NCBI RefSeq assembly: GCF_004912275.1
Contig: NZ_STGY01000056.1
Location: 1 to 64,000, forward strand
Origin: Glycomyces buryatensis
Lineage (GTDB): Bacteria; Actinomycetota; Actinomycetes; Mycobacteriales; Micromonosporaceae
Direction: 5' to 3'
Length of the DNA: 64,000 bases
The position numbers were made by a program, and so were the translations under genes. Below, piece after piece: positions 48,620 to 55,132 of this stretch. Every line of letters begins with the position of its first letter. The first letter of the stretch is position 1. The notes below the pieces were generated by a model, which saw nothing but the letters and a program-made list of their open reading frames with translations, was not told where the DNA came from and ran no database searches.

Positions 48620-49168
48620 CTACTCCGGGACGGGGCAGCGCTTGTCCACCCCTGTCCAGTTCACCCAGGTGAGTTCGACGGGTTCGGTCGGAAGGTCCCC
48701 GCCGATCAGTTGCTTGACGAGGGTCGCGATCGGCACCGGGAACACCGCGTGGTCGATGGTGTCGAGCTGGCTGACGGTGAGCCACTCCGCGCTGGTGATC
48801 GAGCGGCGCTCGCCTTCCTCCATATAGTCGAAGGTCGGTGTGAAGTGGGGCGTGCGGAGGAAGAAGTAGGTGTCGTCCTGGTAGATGCGCGTGGTCGGGC
48901 CCGCCCACCATTCGCCGGCGGTGTGGGCGACGACCGGGCCGAGGTCGGCGGGTTCGACGCGCAGACCGGTCTCTTCGAACAGTTCCCGTGCGGCGGCTTC
49001 AGGCGGAGTCTCGTCCGCGTCGATGCCGCCGCCGATGGTGTCGAAGAACTGCGATTCGGGGCTTACCGCCCCGGAGCTGAAGTTGAAGAGGACACGGTCG
49101 TCTTCGTCGGCGACCAGCACTCGGGCGCAGCGGCGGAGGACCAACGGGGGAGGTTCGGCAGCGTTCAT
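48620..49168 (-). CDS. NUDIX hydrolase 1
   Basis: 182 residues. NUDIX box: GGIDADE, then EAAARELFEETGL (metal-binding Glu in REL-x-EE). N-terminal RRCARVLVADEDDRVLLF is shared with other members in this cluster. Hydrolyses a nucleoside diphosphate linked to another moiety; substrate unknown. Start ATG 49168, because GATACT lies exactly six bases before it; an in-frame ATG 15 bases earlier overlaps that -10. Confidence 0.88.
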   Translation of the reverse strand: MNAAEPPPLVLRRCARVLVADEDDRVLFNFSSGAVSPESQFFDTIGGGIDADETPPEAAARELFEETGLRVEPADLGPVVAHTAGEWWAGPTTRIYQDDTYFFLRTPHFTPTFDYMEEGERRSITSAEWLTVSQLDTIDHAVFPVPIATLVKQLIGGDLPTEPVELTWVNWTGVDKRCPVPE

Positions 49169-49266
49169 CGGTCGAGTATCCATGCCCGACAGCCGAATTG
49201 GTAGTCAATGTGTGACGCAAGATGGTGAACTCGCGACAATGTCCACCCAAGGCGGCCCTATGGGTC

Positions 49267-49785
49267 TCAGTTAACGAAGCGCGGTGAGAAGGCCCCGCCG
49301 ATATTGACCGGCTCGTCTGGGGTGTCGCCATCGCGGAGCCGCTTGACGAAGTCGATGAGGAGGTCGGGACGGACCGTGCCGTCGGAGGTGCCGCACTGAT
49401 CGATGGGGAACCATTCGAAGGTGAAGTCCTGCTCGTAGGCGATGTCGCTGTTCAGCCGCGGCTCGAAGCGCTCGGTGCGGTGGAAGAAGAGCCAGTTCTT
49501 CTGGACGAACAGGCGGCCTTCGGGGAACCCGACGAAGGTCCCGTAGCCGACCGGGTCCCCGAGCGCTACGGGATCGATCCGGAGCCCGGTCTCCTCCACG
49601 AGTTCCCGCGCCGCCGCGACCGCGATCGCTTCGTCGGGATCGACGCCGCCGCCGGGGAGGAACCAGCGGGTGATCCCGTCGAGGCATTTGCCGCCGCCCA
49701 CATGGAGGACGGTGTCGTGCTGGTCGAGGAGGATGACGCGGGCGGCGATGCGGAGGGTCGCGCCGGTTTCGGTCTCGATGCTCAT
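49267..49785 (-). CDS. NUDIX hydrolase 2
   Basis: 172 residues. NUDIX box GGGVDPDEAIAVAAARELVE followed by ETGL. No promoter-like -10 close upstream; eleven bases after the end of NUDIX 3, so probably in one transcript with it. The sequence resembles NUDIX 3 most closely. Confidence 0.85.
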   Translation of the reverse strand: MSIETETGATLRIAARVILLDQHDTVLHVGGGKCLDGITRWFLPGGGVDPDEAIAVAAARELVEETGLRIDPVALGDPVGYGTFVGFPEGRLFVQKNWLFFHRTERFEPRLNSDIAYEQDFTFEWFPIDQCGTSDGTVRPDLLIDFVKRLRDGDTPDEPVNIGGAFSPRFVN

Positions 49786-49796
49786 GGAGGGGTCTC

Positions 49797-50345
49797 TCAG
49801 TGCTGGTCGGGCCGGGAGGCGGCGCCGAGCGGGGGGTGGTTGCCGCGGCTGGTGGGTTCGAGTTGGACGGGTTCGGCGGGGACCTCGCCGTCCAACAGCC
49901 GCTTGATGAGGCCGAGCATCAGGTCGATGCGCTCGAGTCCGTCGGTGGCAAGGAGGTCGTCCACCGCGATCCAATTGAATTCGAGATCCTGCTCGTAGGC
50001 GTCGCCTCCCGAGACGCGCGGCGAGAACCGTTCGGCGCGAACGAAGAAGAAGTGGTTCTCCTGCGTCCAGGGCTTGTCGTCCCGCACGGTGTGGAAGCAC
50101 TGGCGGGCGACCGGCCCGGCCAGGTCGGCGGGGGCGACGTGCAGGCCCGTCTCCTCGAGCAGTTCGCGGGCGGCGGCCTCGGCCATCGACTCGCCGTGGT
50201 CGATGCCGCCGCCGGGGAGGATCCATCTGGCGGGGCGGTCGGGGGTGGCGTGCCGGCCGATGAACAGGATGCAGTCCTGCTCGTCCGCGATGATGCCGCG
50301 GGCGCCGCGACGGTCTATATGGGTGCTTTCATCCATCGGGTTCAC
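49797..50345 (-). CDS. NUDIX hydrolase 3
   Basis: 182 residues. NUDIX box GGGIDHGESMAEAAARELLE followed by ETGL. Starts with GTG 50345, which overlaps the stop of NUDIX 4 by three bases but also has its own GATACT six bases upstream, so it may be transcribed alone or with NUDIX 4. Confidence 0.88.
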   Translation of the reverse strand: MNPMDESTHIDRRGARGIIADEQDCILFIGRHATPDRPARWILPGGGIDHGESMAEAAARELLEETGLHVAPADLAGPVARQCFHTVRDDKPWTQENHFFFVRAERFSPRVSGGDAYEQDLEFNWIAVDDLLATDGLERIDLMLGLIKRLLDGEVPAEPVQLEPTSRGNHPPLGAASRPDQH

Positions 50346-50905
50346 CGTTCAAGTATCGAGGGACGCTCCGTGGCTGTCCAACCTCTATCCGTGTCCCAGC
50401 ACCAGGCTCCCCAGGGGATGTCAAGGGGCGCAATGGGAATCGTCCCATCTAGGAGCTGGGAGAGCAAGTCGGCGACGCGGCCGGGGAAGACGAGGGCGTC
50501 GGCGGCCCGGAGCTGGTCGAGCGTGAGCCACCGCGCCTCGGTGAACTCGGCGCCCTCGGTGCCGACGAGGCGGTCCCGGATCGGTTCGAAGTGCGGTACG
50601 CGCGCGAAGAAGTAGGCGTCGCGGGAGTAGATGAGCAGGTCGGGGGAATCGGACCAGTACCCCTCGGTTCTGGCGGCCACGGGCCCGAGCTCGTCGGTTC
50701 GCAGGCGCAGGCCGGTCTCCTCGAACACCTCCCGGACGGCGGCCTCGGCGAGCGTCTCGCCGTCCTCGATCCCGCCGCCGACCGTGACGTAGTACTGGAC
50801 GCCGGGCGCGACGAACCCGTCGCTGAAGAACAGCAGCAGCCGGTCGTCCTCGTCAACGAGCAGCACCCGGGCGCAGCGGCGCCGTATCGGTTCCGGTTCG
50901 ATCAT
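50342..50905 (-). CDS. NUDIX hydrolase 4
   Basis: 187 residues. NUDIX box GGGIEDGETLAEAAVREVFE followed by ETGL, with RRCARVLLVDEDDRLLLFF before it. Start ATG 50905 with GATACT six bases upstream (50912-50917), as for NUDIX 1 and 3. A long in-frame extension to 51166 reads through the neighbouring gene and was not used. Confidence 0.88.
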   Translation of the reverse strand: MIEPEPIRRRCARVLLVDEDDRLLLFFSDGFVAPGVQYYVTVGGGIEDGETLAEAAVREVFEETGLRLRTDELGPVAARTEGYWSDSPDLLIYSRDAYFFARVPHFEPIRDRLVGTEGAEFTEARWLTLDQLRAADALVFPGRVADLLSQLLDGTIPIAPLDIPWGAWCWDTDRGWTATERPSILER

Positions 50906-50946
50906 GCCCCGAGTATCCGCACCAGACCCGCCATCGCCCACCCGCG

Positions 50947-51444
50947 CTACCGAATTTCCCGGTCCGCCAGCCATTCGTCGAGGAACGCCTTGGCCTCGGG
51001 TTCCGGCCAGAGCTTCGAGCGGCCTCCAAGATCGGAGATCGGCGTCGGAAAGCCGGGTTTGCTGACGATCTTCTGGCTGACCTGTTGCGTGGATCTGCCG
51101 GTGTAGCGGGCAATGTCGGCCCCGGACATGTAGACGCCCGGGATGCCCGGCGCCTGCTCGTCCCATCGGTCGAATGTGGTCACCTCAACGGTCTCGACCG
51201 TGAAGTCCAGTGCGGCCGACTCGCCGAACAAGACCGCGGCCCGTCTGGAAAGCTCGTTCTTCGCGGTCTGATATACAGCCTCAGCACTGCCGCCCTCGCA
51301 GAAACCGTTGAGGGCGATGCTCCGCTCCGACATGTCGAGAACGGTCCGCAGCGAGCTGTCACCTCTTGCGGCCAGAACAGTCTCCTCATCGGGTTCGGTC
51401 AGCGGTGCGGCCGAGACGGCCAGTATGTAGACGCGGAATCGCAT
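50947..51444 (-). CDS. Sensor-HTH regulator, antitoxin-like half of cassette A
   Basis: 165 residues. N-terminal alpha/beta region beginning RFRVYILAVSAAPL (ferredoxin-like look, about 1-95) and a C-terminal helix-turn-helix: SGADIARYTGRSTQQVSQKI, then FPTPISDLGGRSKLWPEPEA, the MerR/AlpA-type wing. The same two-part plan is seen in the 51878-52414 gene. Each lies just downstream of a tiny HicA-like gene, so these look like antitoxin/repressors of a two-gene system. AGGAGGAG precedes the ATG. Confidence 0.6.
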   Translation of the reverse strand: MRFRVYILAVSAAPLTEPDEETVLAARGDSSLRTVLDMSERSIALNGFCEGGSAEAVYQTAKNELSRRAAVLFGESAALDFTVETVEVTTFDRWDEQAPGIPGVYMSGADIARYTGRSTQQVSQKIVSKPGFPTPISDLGGRSKLWPEPEAKAFLDEWLADREIR

Positions 51445-51518
51445 TGTGGCTCCTCCTGGTCTCAATTCGTCAAGGAGGGGGGTTTCGGCCCGGACGGGCC
51501 GGGACTTGTGGCGATGAC

Positions 51519-51707
51519 CTACAGGTCGCGGTACTCTTCGAACAGTTTCCTAATCTCTTCGCGAGTCGCCGGTATCGCCCGGTACTCGCGTACCGTTCCG
51601 GCGCGATCGAGGATGATCCAATGGTGGTCCGCACCTGGTTCGATGCGGAATCCCAGACTCTCGATCGCCGCTGCGAGGCTTTCTAGAATCGCCTCGGCGT
51701 CGGTCAT
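51519..51707 (-). CDS. HicA-like small protein, cassette A
   Basis: 62 residues: AIESLGFRIEPGADHHWIIL, then REYRAIPATREEIRKLFEEY. The order helix, strand, G-x-H-H/W, strand, P-x-T-x-x-E-I/R-x-L is that of small double-stranded-RNA-binding-like HicA toxins. The catalytic-type His (HH at about 28-29) is present. Excellent ribosome site (AGGAGGTGACGA before the ATG). It lies 74 bases upstream of the regulator gene. Lower GC than neighbours. HicA resemblance is by eye only. Confidence 0.5.
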   Translation of the reverse strand: MTDAEAILESLAAAIESLGFRIEPGADHHWIILDRAGTVREYRAIPATREEIRKLFEEYRDL

Positions 51708-51767
51708 TCGTCACCTCCTCTCGTCCTTGATCGGAGGCGGCGCCACCCCCTCAGCGGCGCCATTCAA

Positions 51768-51795
51768 ATGTTAACACATGTGGTTTATATTTCAA
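51768..51795 (-). promoter_or_regulatory. Promoter and operator of cassette A
   Basis: On the minus strand TTGAAA (51795-51790) and TAACAT (51773-51768) are 16 bases apart, a good vegetative promoter in an AT-rich patch. TGTTAACA, a perfect eight-base palindrome (51769-51776), overlaps the -10 and is a natural place for autorepression by the HTH regulator. Confidence 0.55.
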
Positions 51796-51877
51796 ACCTT
51801 CATCGCTCACTCGCCCACCCAGGGCATTTCGATCGGTCTGGCGAGTGCTTCCCCGGCTATGAGGCGCTTCAGGAACT

Positions 51878-52414
51878 TCAGGCGACCGCCTGGGTCAGTG
51901 CCTTTCGGTGTTCGGCCGACAGCCGCCGTTGCAGCCGCCTGGCACGGAGCGTCGCGTCGGCGACCTCGCAGAGCTGGGCGATCTCCACATCGGCTGGCGA
52001 CACCTCGGCCAGGTTGTGCTCTTCCAGCCAGATGGACACCTCGGCCCATGAATACAGGCTGACTCGTGGTCGCGGCACTCGCGGCTCAGGAAAGCCGCCA
52101 GGTCCACGCCTACCGGTCACCCAGTGGTCCACCGCGGCGACGGTTCGGTTGGTCCTCTCGGCAATCTGGGAGATGGCGACAAGGTCTTCAGCGACTCCGA
52201 GGAGTTCGACTCCGGCCTTGCGTCCTTGTCGGATCGCGGACACCACCGCCTGCACCGCCGACGGCGCTTCCCGGTTGAAGGTTGCCCACCCTTCGCCTCC
52301 CGCGACAGGGTCAAAGGAGACCAAAGCGTCGTCCCATCCCGCCTCATACATCGCATCGATGATGCGCTCGCCAGGCGGAGCGGAAAAATGCAGCTCAAAT
52401 GCGTAGACGGTCAT
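51878..52414 (-). CDS. Sensor-HTH regulator, antitoxin-like half of cassette B
   Basis: 178 residues. N-terminal TVYAFELHFSAPPGERIID (ferredoxin-like alpha/beta, about 1-80), then an HTH: ISQIAERTNRTVAAVDHWV and GGFPEPRVPRPRVSLYSWAE. Its plan matches the cassette A regulator: a short N-terminal sensor, HTH and a FP-x-P wing with a final W. Starts four bases after the stop of the HicA-like gene, so the two are coupled. Confidence 0.6.
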   Translation of the reverse strand: MTVYAFELHFSAPPGERIIDAMYEAGWDDALVSFDPVAGGEGWATFNREAPSAVQAVVSAIRQGRKAGVELLGVAEDLVAISQIAERTNRTVAAVDHWVTGRRGPGGFPEPRVPRPRVSLYSWAEVSIWLEEHNLAEVSPADVEIAQLCEVADATLRARRLQRRLSAEHRKALTQAVA

Positions 52415-52418
52415 CGTC

Positions 52419-52667
52419 TCATGCTCCCTTCTTGATGTCTGTTTCCAAACCGTGGGGACACTCGTCCGCAACCTTTCGCAGTTGCTTGGCGAAGTCTTCG
52501 GGCGACCGCGGCGTTGACCAGATCGATCTCGGTGGCCGACATCCGGTCCCACCACCGGGGCAGAAAGCCCGCCCCCATGCATGCCCTCCTGAGGTCTCGA
52601 TCTTCCAGCCCTTCTCCTCCATGTACTCGATCGCGGCGCGGATATGCTTGTTGGGGTGTCTCGGCAT
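52419..52667 (-). CDS. HicA-like small protein, cassette B
   Basis: 82 residues. HIRAAIEYMEEKGWKIETSG followed by GHAWGRAFCP: helix, strand, SGGHAWG with a His where HicA has its active His, then strands and a final helix (PEDFAKQLRKVADE). Longer than cassette A by a C-terminal Cys-containing part (DECPHG). Precedes its regulator by four bases. A possible promoter lies in the AT-rich bases just upstream (TAGCAT at about 52679). Confidence 0.5.
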   Translation of the reverse strand: MPRHPNKHIRAAIEYMEEKGWKIETSGGHAWGRAFCPGGGTGCRPPRSIWSTPRSPEDFAKQLRKVADECPHGLETDIKKGA

Positions 52668-52751
52668 GTATGAATAATGCTACATTCGCCAGCCGGATTC
52701 GCGCAACGACACGCACCGACTCGACGTTTTTGACGGACGTGGCGCTGCGAG

Positions 52752-53288
52752 CTACTGGACGTTGCGGTCGGACCAGAGGTTGATCCATTCGAGTTCTATC
52801 GGGCTCGTCAGGGTCTCCCCGGACAAAAGTCGCCCTAGCACTCCGGCCAGGCCGATGGGGAAGATGTAGTCGGTCTCGGAGGCGGCGAGCTCTTCAAGGG
52901 TGAGCCAGGCGGCGTGGTCGATCTCCTTTTCTTCGCCCTCCTCAAGGCCGTCGAAGACGGGCTCGAAGTGCTTGGTGCGCAGGAAGAAGAAGTTGTCGTC
53001 GGAGTAGAAGCGGGTGCCGGTGTGGGTGGTCCAGGCGCCTTCGAGGTGGGCGACGAGCGGGCCGAGCTCGTCGGGGGTGACGCGCAGGCCGGTCTCCTCG
53101 AACACCTCGCGGGCGGCCGCCTCGGCAAGGGACTCGCCGTCCTCGACGCCGCCGCCGACGGTGAAGTAGTAGTCGCCGTCCTGGACGATCAGGCCGCTGC
53201 CGTAGAACAGCAGGACCCGGTCGTCCTCGTCCACGATGAGGACGCGAGCGGCGCGGCGGAAGATGAGGCCTTCGGGGTTGGTTGCCAT
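52752..53288 (-). CDS. NUDIX hydrolase 5
   Basis: 178 residues. NUDIX box GGGVEDGESLAEAAAREVFE followed by ETGL; RRAARVLIVDEDDRVLLFY before it. Close to NUDIX 1 and 4. Leaderless: TAGGCT (53296-53301) lies seven bases before the ATG. Separated from the other four by the two cassettes. Confidence 0.88.
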   Translation of the reverse strand: MATNPEGLIFRRAARVLIVDEDDRVLLFYGSGLIVQDGDYYFTVGGGVEDGESLAEAAAREVFEETGLRVTPDELGPLVAHLEGAWTTHTGTRFYSDDNFFFLRTKHFEPVFDGLEEGEEKEIDHAAWLTLEELAASETDYIFPIGLAGVLGRLLSGETLTSPIELEWINLWSDRNVQ

Positions 53289-53553
53289 GTGCCCCAGCCT
53301 AACTTGGTGGCGGTTCGCGGCGAAGGTTCGCGAGCCGGCCTGGACGTGCGGGCTTGTTCGGGCCGCCGCGTTCTCCTGCTCGTCTCGGATGTGGCTCTGG
53401 CGTTCGGGGGCAGCGCCTGGGGGCTCTCCCTGTTAGGTTGGTCGCGAACGGGATCGATCCGGTCCGCCGAGTTGAGCGGGCCGGGGTGGTCACACCCCAC
53501 CGGTCATGCTCGCGGAGTGGATCGGTTGAGCCCCATAGAAAGAGGTGGCGCCA

Positions 53554-53811
53554 GTGTCGGTCGCAGAGATCAGGGCCCAGGTGCAGGCGGCTTCGGAGCA
53601 GGGTAATGAGGCGATGGGAAGCTGCGAGGCGGTCAAGCAGCAGTTGGAGGCGGCGATCGGGACGATTGCCGGTGCCACGCAGGAGACCAGTAATCAGTTG
53701 CCCGGTGAGGCGATGGGTCAGTGGCAGCAGGCCTCCGAGAAGATCGAGGAGGCCGTGGCGCTGATTCAGGCGGGTCAGCAGACGGCAGAGCAGTACACCA
53801 GCGCGATCTGA
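53554..53811 (+). CDS. DUF6244-like helical protein (WXG100-type length)
   Basis: 85 residues, all helix: AEIRAQVQAASEQGNEAMGS, GTIAGATQE, and QWQQASEKIEEAVALIQAGQ. The length and heptads fit small exported helical hairpins. Start GTG 53554 with AGAGG eight bases upstream; GTG 53545 is possible but too close to the ribosome site. Its stop overlaps the next start. Confidence 0.65.
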   Translation: MSVAEIRAQVQAASEQGNEAMGSCEAVKQQLEAAIGTIAGATQETSNQLPGEAMGQWQQASEKIEEAVALIQAGQQTAEQYTSAI

Positions 53812-54620
53812 TGACGTCGATCGGTGATGTCGCCGCGACGCTTCGCGGTGCGATGCAGGTGATCGATGAGGCGATCAAGTCCGCGCAGGCGGCCGAGAGC
53901 GAAATGGGCCAGGCGGAGTCCACACTGCGGGGTCAGTTGGAGGGCTCCTCCAATGAGCTTGTCGGCCAGGGCTTCAGCCAGCTGGAGCAGGCGAGGGCGA
54001 AGCTGGAGGAGGGCCTGAAGGCGTACCACGCCGGGAACAAGGCGATGGGCGACTATGTAGCGTCCATCGCCGGAGGAGGTGGAGGAGGAGGTGGCCTGAC
54101 TTCGTCTGTAGCTTCCTCCGCCCGCATCAAGGCTCCCGCCTTGCCAGACGATCCCAGCGGGATGATCGGCCAACCTGTCACGCCCGACTTCATGAACTTC
54201 AGCGAGGTCAACCGAATCCTTGGCTTCGATCCCGCCGAGCCCGAGTCGGCTCGAAATAACGACCTGGTGCCAGGCATATCCGAGCGGATCGAGATTGAGG
54301 AGGATCGCAACCAGGATGAATCGCTTGGACGGCCCCGGCAATTCGGGCGCAACATGGTCCGCGGGGCCGAGGACCTCGGGAACTTCGCGGGGACAATGGA
54401 AAAGGGCGCCAAGGTGCCCCACGACGCATGGGAACCTCCGCCGGACCCGCATAGCTACAATACGGGTACGGCGGTGCCAGAACCTGTGCGCACAGTATCG
54501 ACTGCAACGTCCGACACCAGTGGCAGCATTCCGGATGTGATGGTGACGGTCGTGATGACATCAGCCGTGCTGGCGGAAGGCATATCGCGCATGGCCCATC
54601 GAAGGAAGGACTCAAAATGA
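53811..54620 (+). CDS. DUF6244-like protein with Gly linker and C-terminal domain
   Basis: 269 residues. Residues 1-80 repeat the helical plan of the previous product (SIGDVAATLRGAMQVIDEAI). A Gly-rich linker (about 84-91) leads to a C-terminal region (about 100-235) of unknown fold and a hydrophobic end (PDVMVTVVMTSAVLAEGIS, about 240-258). No toxin motif. TGATG overlap with the previous gene and ATGA overlap with the next suggest one operon. Confidence 0.6.
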   Translation: MTSIGDVAATLRGAMQVIDEAIKSAQAAESEMGQAESTLRGQLEGSSNELVGQGFSQLEQARAKLEEGLKAYHAGNKAMGDYVASIAGGGGGGGGLTSSVASSARIKAPALPDDPSGMIGQPVTPDFMNFSEVNRILGFDPAEPESARNNDLVPGISERIEIEEDRNQDESLGRPRQFGRNMVRGAEDLGNFAGTMEKGAKVPHDAWEPPPDPHSYNTGTAVPEPVRTVSTATSDTSGSIPDVMVTVVMTSAVLAEGISRMAHRRKDSK

Positions 54621-55054
54621 GCTCAAAGTATCGCGACCTTCTGCGGGCGCAGACACTTCGAGAACGGGATAAGTCCGAGCAGCTGAGCGAAGGCTTCACC
54701 CCCGAAGACCGGCGAGAATACTACTTCCTAACGATGGCGTTCTTCGCCAGCATCGTCGGCACGCGCCTCGGGGACCACCCGAAGCGAGCGGATATCGATT
54801 CACTGGTAAGTGAACTGCGGTACGACTACCGCAAGGCCGGGACCGCAATCAACTATCTCCACATCGAAGCTCTGCTCCGCGCTCTCTATGGCGAAGAACA
54901 CTTGATGGATGACATCGGCTTTGAAGATCAAGTGAAGGCGTATCTGCCGGTTGTCATCAAGATCGTCGCCCAGAACGACGAGGTGCGTGAAAAGCTTGAT
55001 GCGTACCTTACCGATGCTGAGAACGTCGCGGCTTCCTGGCGGCAAGGCGGATAA
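54617..55054 (+). CDS. Helical protein, third gene of the DUF6244-like operon
   Basis: 145 residues, mostly helix (EDRREYYFLTMAFFASIVGT, SELRYDYRKAGTAINYLHIE). No Cys and no membrane segment. It might be an immunity or chaperone partner; inference only. Its GC and codon use are visibly lower than the genes around it. A 33-bp hairpin follows ten bases after the stop. Confidence 0.6.
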   Translation: MSSKYRDLLRAQTLRERDKSEQLSEGFTPEDRREYYFLTMAFFASIVGTRLGDHPKRADIDSLVSELRYDYRKAGTAINYLHIEALLRALYGEEHLMDDIGFEDQVKAYLPVVIKIVAQNDEVREKLDAYLTDAENVAASWRQGG

Positions 55055-55063
55055 CGCAATACT

Positions 55064-55132
55064 GAAGAACTTTGAGACTGTTTGGGGGACAAGGCCAAAG
55101 GCCTTGTCCCCCAAACAGTCTCAAAGTTCTTC
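55064..55132. repeat. Perfect 33-bp inverted repeat (long hairpin)
   Basis: Arms 55064-55096 and 55100-55132 are exact reverse complements, separated by the three-base loop AAA. The arms begin GAAGAACTTTGAGACTG and end ACAAGGCC. It starts ten bases after a stop codon, so it can act as a terminator, but 33 paired bases with no mismatch is far more than needed; it lacks a T run outside the stem. Confidence 0.9.

Follow-up and report, generated by a model that had tools for sequence, protein, structure and literature searches.

HicA-like gene pairs with a putative ferredoxin-like antitoxin in a NUDIX gene array of Glycomyces buryatensis

In classical HicAB toxin–antitoxin modules (Class 3 of Gerdes), hicA comes first and is followed by hicB with a C-terminal helix-turn-helix (HTH), and the HicB antitoxin has a partial RNase H fold (PMC10865869; statements from this and the other papers cited here refer to the part of each text that was available). 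None of Gerdes' 14 HicA classes has a ferredoxin-like antitoxin, and the word ferredoxin is absent from the available part of that text. Two further known systems are PDC-M06, a PADLOC candidate defence system, and a gene pair of SSU5-type phage-plasmids that was published as HicA–HicB in the phage Cyrano (PMC9928086). Here we analysed a 64,000-nucleotide stretch of the G. buryatensis genome (positions 1 to 64,000 of contig NZ_STGY01000056.1, hereafter the window), in which two tandem two-gene cassettes, A and B, lie among NUDIX genes. We consider it probable that each cassette is a type II toxin–antitoxin module of a HicA-like toxin and a ferredoxin-like antitoxin. For cassette B, a HicA-type module whose antitoxin is not HicB is very likely, and cassette A is likely to be a diverged version of the same plan. 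The four minus-strand open reading frames (ORFs) claimed in a preliminary description of the locus are all present:

52419 to 52667, minus strand: B1, HicA-like small protein of 82 residues, PDC-M06A, putative toxin, with a conserved His29
51878 to 52414, minus strand: B2, 178 residues, ferredoxin-like domain, helix-turn-helix and long C-terminal helix, PDC-M06B, putative antitoxin and autoregulator
51519 to 51707, minus strand: A1, 62 residues, putative diverged HicA-like toxin, with His28-His29 at the motif position
50947 to 51444, minus strand: A2, 165-residue regulator with an FP-type HTH, putative antitoxin and autoregulator of cassette A

The small gene stands first in both cassettes, separated from its partner by 4 bp in cassette B and 74 bp in cassette A. 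Cassette B belongs to PDC-M06, as its adjacent genes match both PADLOC models in the same order: B1 matches PDC-M06A (E 6.8e-25) and the PHROGs family phrog_5923 (7.7e-18), and B2 matches PDC-M06B (E 5.5e-19) and phrog_2620 (8.6e-18). Counting its own genome, M06A was found in 23 and M06B in 47 of 151 genomes; within the genus (22 genomes, G000–G021) the numbers were 10 and 12, the M06B match in G017 covering the HTH part only. M06A-like genes were also present on 229 plasmid records, among them 81 from Enterobacter and 80 from Escherichia, and among phages in two SSU5 records and one of Cyrano. The SSU5 and Cyrano pairs likewise match both PDC-M06 models, and the Cyrano record annotates its pair (CYRAN_51/50) as HicA toxin and putative antitoxin HicB. 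In a lysogen expression table that also notes local background expression, CYRAN_51/50 have values of 30 and 14 (PMC9928086). Scans of viral contigs with B1, A1 or A2 as single sequences returned no confirmed relative. Canonical HicA (PF07927) was detected in 43 of 119 genomes of the phylum and was not found in G000, the genome to which the window belongs.

We compared B1 with HicA by predicted structure and by sequence profile. AlphaFold2 (28 sequences; predicted local distance difference test (pLDDT) 82) predicted a helix (residues 7–18), three strands (22–25, 30–35 and 47–50) and a final helix (56–69), which is the alpha-beta-beta-beta-alpha order of the HicA fold, a fold resembling the double-stranded RNA-binding domain. 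In a second-look structure alignment against 133 chains, the first three ranks were the HicA structures 6g26, 4p78 and 6hpb (Z 4.4, 4.0 and 3.9; root-mean-square deviation (rmsd) 3.5, 3.1 and 2.9). His29 of B1, at the start of strand 2, is invariant in M06A (23 of 23 sequences) and aligns with the invariant histidine of HicA (20 of 20), which we take to be catalytic. Profile links were made with hhalign as single comparisons. The M06A and HicA profiles aligned in register with the conserved histidine (34.8%, E 4e-4), B1 alone scored higher against HicA than all 200 of its shuffles, and a control comparison of HicA with the regulator gave 0.2%. In BFVD, the two B1 matches with E values up to 0.001 are unnamed in function, and 6 of the 50 matches listed were named HicA-like (E 0.23–1.5). 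The claim that the small proteins are HicA-like is supported by the predicted topology for B1, but only weakly, by sequence, for A1.

The model of B2 (26 sequences, pLDDT 90.9) comprises an N-terminal beta-alpha-beta-beta-alpha-beta domain, an HTH region and a 38-residue C-terminal helix. The N-terminal domain resembles ferredoxin-like metallochaperones and S6 permutants, with Z up to 8.4 over 63 residues and an rmsd of 2.0, and the predicted model lacks the HicB-type partial RNase H fold. The preliminary description had proposed a ferredoxin-like N terminus followed by an HTH in place of the HicB fold, which for cassette B the model bears out when HicB is taken as described in PMC10865869. 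No HicB entry was among the 50 matches listed for B2, which by itself excludes nothing, the fold claim resting on topology, and a sequence search of the PDB with B2 gave no match. The antitoxin carries a predicted DNA-binding domain, the HTH region of the B2 model; A2 alone aligns to this region at 93.8% (against M06B).

Compared with classical HicAB, cassette B thus shares the small toxin gene in first place, the HicA topology with its conserved histidine, and a partner in which an HTH follows an N-terminal domain; it differs in the predicted ferredoxin-like fold of that domain and in having no Pfam HicA match. Because the predicted antitoxin fold is not that of HicB, the cassette is not a HicAB member, and the proposal that it works like HicAB stands as an inference. 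The SSU5-type pair (SSU5_055/054, CYRAN_51/50) consists of adjacent homologues of B1 and B2 in the same order. Its small protein is about 42% identical to B1, its genes are separated by 52–87 bp (L092, L093, L095 and L103; L and G numbers denote our loci and genomes) rather than 4 bp, and its partner goes by the name HicB, even though this protein is a homologue of B2 and the B2 model does not have the shape of HicB.

The conserved co-occurrence expected of the B-type genes was found, the pair showing the two-gene arrangement of HicAB, a toxin adjoining its antitoxin, with putative co-transcription. A scan of viral contigs with an M06A alignment yielded 52 loci, and in 51 of them M06B follows M06A immediately in the same orientation; these are not 52 independent cases, because many are near-identical. 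Both genes were also present, side by side, in all 12 phage and plasmid loci that we fetched. To count decay we used 20 actinobacterial regions, a non-random set picked from the M06A and M06B genome matches. Thirteen held intact pairs and two held pairs of a distant subfamily (L071 and L077). In the remaining five (L060, L061, L074, L078 and L079) the regulator was intact and the small gene missing, truncated or frameshifted; no region had an intact small gene with a broken regulator. Outside this set, L007 and L023 had a regulator without a small gene, L028–L030, L033 and L034 had lone divergent regulators, and L027 and L032 had distant pairs.

Some partners are shorter. In L161 and L163 the M06B homologue has about 82–85 residues and ends before the HTH, possibly through premature stops, and in L050, L052 and L222 the ORF after the HicA-like gene likewise lacks an HTH; the latter three give 95% (E 3.4e-8) when aligned with the A-type N-terminal domain. 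These HTH-less partners suggest that the ferredoxin-like domain is the constant, toxin-neutralising part and the HTH an optional regulator. The sensor-like character given to this domain in the preliminary description is hypothetical. Separately, ten loci (L113, L115, L118, L120–L123 and L128–L130) have, by reading, an apparent HicB-type N terminus joined to the same FP-type HTH, and in L113, L123, L128, L129 and L130 a related MPR(K/R)(N/H)RR... ORF lies upstream.

The same features bear on whether the pair is instead a regulatory switch, in which the HTH protein would be excisionase- or AlpA-like, with the small protein serving it as an RNA- or DNA-binding cofactor. The name of phrog_2620, 'excisionase and transcriptional regulator', the like annotation of SSU5_054 in the SSU5 record, a weak Pfam Phage_AlpA match to SSU5_054 (E 0.084) and tyrosine recombinase genes near the pair on Polymorphobacter and Photobacterium plasmids all speak for such a switch. 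We nevertheless regard it as unlikely, given the predicted HicA-like fold and invariant histidine of the small protein, the existence of partners without the HTH that a pure regulator would need, and the fact that the decayed member is the small gene.

Turning to cassette A, searches of A1 and A2 against Pfam, NCBIfam, PADLOC and PHROGs gave nothing firm, save phrog_4996 on the A2 C terminus (E 3.7e-6). Unlike cassette B, it does not belong to PDC-M06, as A1 has no M06A match and A2 reaches M06B at E 0.05. A PADLOC match of A1 to PDC-M05B (E 0.01) was dropped, M05 being a nucleotidyltransferase/HEPN pair. Among 151 genomes, single-sequence searches found A2 in its own genome only and A1 in two. 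The second A1 match is a remnant in G003, where the last 25 residues of A1 survive, 84% identical, flanked by an intact B2 and a NUDIX gene; B1 is gone. No match to A2 was obtained in the plasmid collection at E 0.01, a PDB sequence search with A2 returned one unrelated chain (E 0.25), and three Bacillales loci from a genome-contig scan with A2 were rejected, as the match sits within a larger unrelated gene.

Wider searches brought in relatives of A2. In the phylum, 7 of 296 genomes gave an A2 match at E 0.01, and apart from its own genome these matches were weak, with L084 and L086 sharing the A-type N terminus; a profile of A2, L084 and L086 matched 61 of 396 genomes, mostly in the HTH alone. 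Seven A-type relatives were recognized by reading (L084, L086, L104, L105, L106, L107 and L109), and the other 22 of the 27 loci L104–L130, having little in common beyond the HTH, were not counted. A profile of A2 with six relatives matched the M06B profile with a probability of 98 (E 1.9e-13) over 127 columns. In these relatives the small gene upstream of the regulator is intact in L084, L104 and L107, whereas its frame is disrupted in L105, L106 and L109, and most of it has been deleted in L086. When the small genes of L084, L104, L105 and L107 were scanned, the last three matched the PADLOC 'HicA-like' model (E 7.5e-11 to 3.7e-8), and the L105 protein scored 17.8 against PF07927 (cut-off 27). 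The 'HicA-like' model was found in 7 of 296 genomes and not in G000.

As a set, the A-type small proteins align with HicA. Five of them gave 72.3% against HicA (E 3.3e-5) and 77.8% against M06A (E 1.9e-5) in hhalign. A wider set of eleven rows gave 87.7% (E 3.4e-6) and 97.8% (E 6.7e-13), figures that are partly circular because the M06A model had supplied L050, L052 and L055, and the 'HicA-like' model L219, L220 and L222. For A1 itself, the real score was reached by 2 of 200 shuffles against HicA and by 1 of 200 against the wider set; pairwise, it gave 5.3% against the five-row set, 9.6% against M06A and 4.9% against the wider set. In the weak in-register alignment, A1 His28-His29 falls at the position of the HicA histidine. 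The proposal that both cassettes follow one plan is supported for A2 by its homology to M06B, but for A1 the HicA signal is only weak.

A more cautious reading would keep cassette B as a toxin–antitoxin module and see cassette A as a decaying or unrelated small ORF beside a lone regulator. It fits the lack of a family match and the weak HicA signal of A1, the occurrence of A2 in its own genome only (1 of 151), and the decay of A1 in G003, where A2 was not found. However, the 84% identity kept over the 25-residue G003 remnant indicates that the A1 frame was probably under selection, L104 and L107 have an intact 'HicA-like' small gene directly upstream of the regulator (the small gene of L084 is intact too, but lacks such a match), and a promoter-like site with a palindrome precedes A1. 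We find this reading doubtful, if somewhat less so than the regulatory switch, and retain cassette A as a diverged toxin–antitoxin module. Chance ORFs are ruled out by conservation, the B-pair having homologues in many genomes and A1 its remnant in G003.

Further elements in and around the cassettes are:

51768 to 51795, minus strand: putative cassette A promoter TTGAAA-16-TAACAT, with the palindrome TGTTAACA (51769–51776) over the -10 box
52665 to 52684, minus strand: conserved element TGTAGnnTTATnnnTACATG, which overlaps the start codon of B1; candidate operator, promoter of a leaderless mRNA, or both
52752 to 53288, minus strand: flanking NUDIX gene upstream of B1 (Pfam NUDIX E 1.4e-18)
50342 to 50905, minus strand: flanking NUDIX gene downstream of A2 (Pfam NUDIX E 5.9e-18)
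about 51807 to 51893, minus strand: probable NUDIX C-terminal remnant between B2 and A1, from tblastn and ORF reading

The promoter and operator described earlier for cassette A are represented by a promoter-like site and an overlapping palindrome. The site scores 9 of 12; sites of this kind number 3 in 3.1 kb, where 0.3 would be expected, and the palindrome TGTTAACA occurs once in the window against 0.04 expected. Between A1 and A2 (51445–51518), a perfect hairpin, CGGCCCG-TC-CGGGCCG, can be read ahead of the A2 ribosome-binding site. In cassette B, nine of the ten genus loci that were aligned retain the element TGTAGnnTTATnnnTACATG upstream of B1; in the tenth (L061), B1 is truncated. Over the nine loci, identity is 0.88 in the 17 bases before the ATG, against 0.55 over -80 to -21 and 0.46 expected at random. 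The element has one perfect match in the genome, and a further one with two mismatches does not exceed what a reversed-pattern control yields; the element could serve as an operator, as a leaderless promoter or as both. Of 19 phage-type loci, some of them near-identical, 7 carry a palindrome (arms of at least 7, spacer 0–2) in the 120 bases preceding M06A, such as TGTTGACAATTGTCAACA in L168, and 4 have no palindrome with arms of at least 6, counts that come without a shuffle control.

Several points weigh against the toxin–antitoxin reading. The Pfam model HicA_toxin (PF07927) matches neither B1 nor A1, the percentage for M06A against HicA is low, and that for A1 alone against HicA is 5.8%. 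Structurally, the top VIA match of the second look (Z 4.4, rmsd 3.5 over 59 residues) is modest, a Holliday-junction nuclease ties at Z 3.9, and by the tool's own warning a Z below 8 can reflect no more than a common arrangement. In Foldseek, a KH-domain protein came first, with HicA structures second (E 1.9, probability 0.38) and fourth (E 2.5, probability 0.33). L211 is the lone exception among the 52 viral loci, without M06B; no partner was seen beside the small HicA-like gene of L055; in L026 both genes are broken; PADLOC gave no match for the L084 small gene; and frameshifts in draft genomes, which enter the decay count, may be sequencing errors. What is observed consists of the gene pairs, their homology, the predicted B1 and B2 folds, adjacency and the element at the B1 start, whereas RNase activity, neutralisation, autorepression and the A1 fold are inferred, and toxicity and binding are likewise putative. 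Overall, the earlier interpretation holds for cassette B in fold, partner and co-occurrence, but not in full for the weakly placed A1, nor in calling cassette B inserted.

That last claim, of cassettes inserted between members of a NUDIX array, is right about position. Five NUDIX neighbours tested match Pfam NUDIX at E 1.5e-14 to 1.4e-18, and the remnant at 51807–51893 is 46% identical over 26 residues to the C terminus of the 52752–53288 NUDIX protein (tblastn E 0.007). However, of 10 other loci of the genus, 8 also have NUDIX genes within the fetched flanks of the B pair, the exceptions being L064, on a short contig, and L066. Because of this shared setting, cassette B looks like a long-standing resident of the NUDIX locus, and genus synteny speaks against a recent mobile insertion. 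GC content is below that of the neighbours for all four genes, as had been noted, though only slightly for B2 (A1 0.598, A2 0.637, B1 0.610, B2 0.654; five NUDIX genes 0.663–0.698; window 0.681). The array as a whole (48620–53288) comprises five NUDIX paralogues and the probable C-terminal remnant. Beyond it, small proteins are encoded on the opposite strand (53545–54620), of which the one at 53545–53811 has only sub-threshold WXG100 and DUF6244 matches, and two 33-base arms around an AAA loop form a perfect inverted repeat (55064–55132), which lies just past a gene ending at 55054 and could be a strong terminator.

In our model, the first gene of each cassette would encode a HicA-like RNA-binding protein, with its conserved histidine at the second strand, that presumably cleaves RNA when free. 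The ferredoxin-like N-terminal domain of the antitoxin would bind and block the toxin, and its HTH would repress the cassette by binding a palindrome that covers the promoter or the start codon. On SSU5-type phage-plasmids the B-type pair is probably an addiction or exclusion module, and the chromosomal copy in this actinobacterium may serve in defence against phages or plasmids. Whether its role is dedicated anti-phage defence by abortive infection, rather than stability, is a question of role compatible with the toxin–antitoxin reading. Both B genes constitute a PADLOC candidate defence system, HicA domains have been proposed to act in defence (PMC10865869), and a HicA interferase is among the newly validated defence domains of the DefensePredictor paper (PMC13092281). 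Conversely, most PDCs have yet to be validated by experiment (PMC12988326), the cassettes sit in a NUDIX array (the neighbourhood was not scanned for other defence genes), and phage-plasmids and viral contigs themselves carry relatives of the pair. We hold dedicated defence to be a tentative option, on balance the less favoured role. Far more speculative, and in our estimate very improbable, is that the ferredoxin-like domain doubles as neutraliser and ligand sensor, a nucleotide-type signal, which phage infection might raise and which the neighbouring NUDIX hydrolases would normally clear, loosening the antitoxin and so freeing the HicA-like RNase; if true, the two cassettes would form a signal-gated pair of toxins wired to the NUDIX array of the genus.

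The pair is already known in part, as PDC-M06 in PADLOC and as annotated HicA/HicB genes in the phage Cyrano. In the literature searched, with bioRxiv preprints outside its scope, we found no paper using the name PDC-M06 and no printed description of a HicA class with a ferredoxin-like antitoxin. PADLOC rows give no mechanism, and the HicA-like toxin with a ferredoxin-like antitoxin proposed here would supply one for this anonymous candidate defence system. It would also widen the HicA toxin superfamily to modules with a non-HicB antitoxin, and would link a chromosomal pair of an actinobacterium to a module carried on SSU5-type phage-plasmids of E. coli and its relatives.

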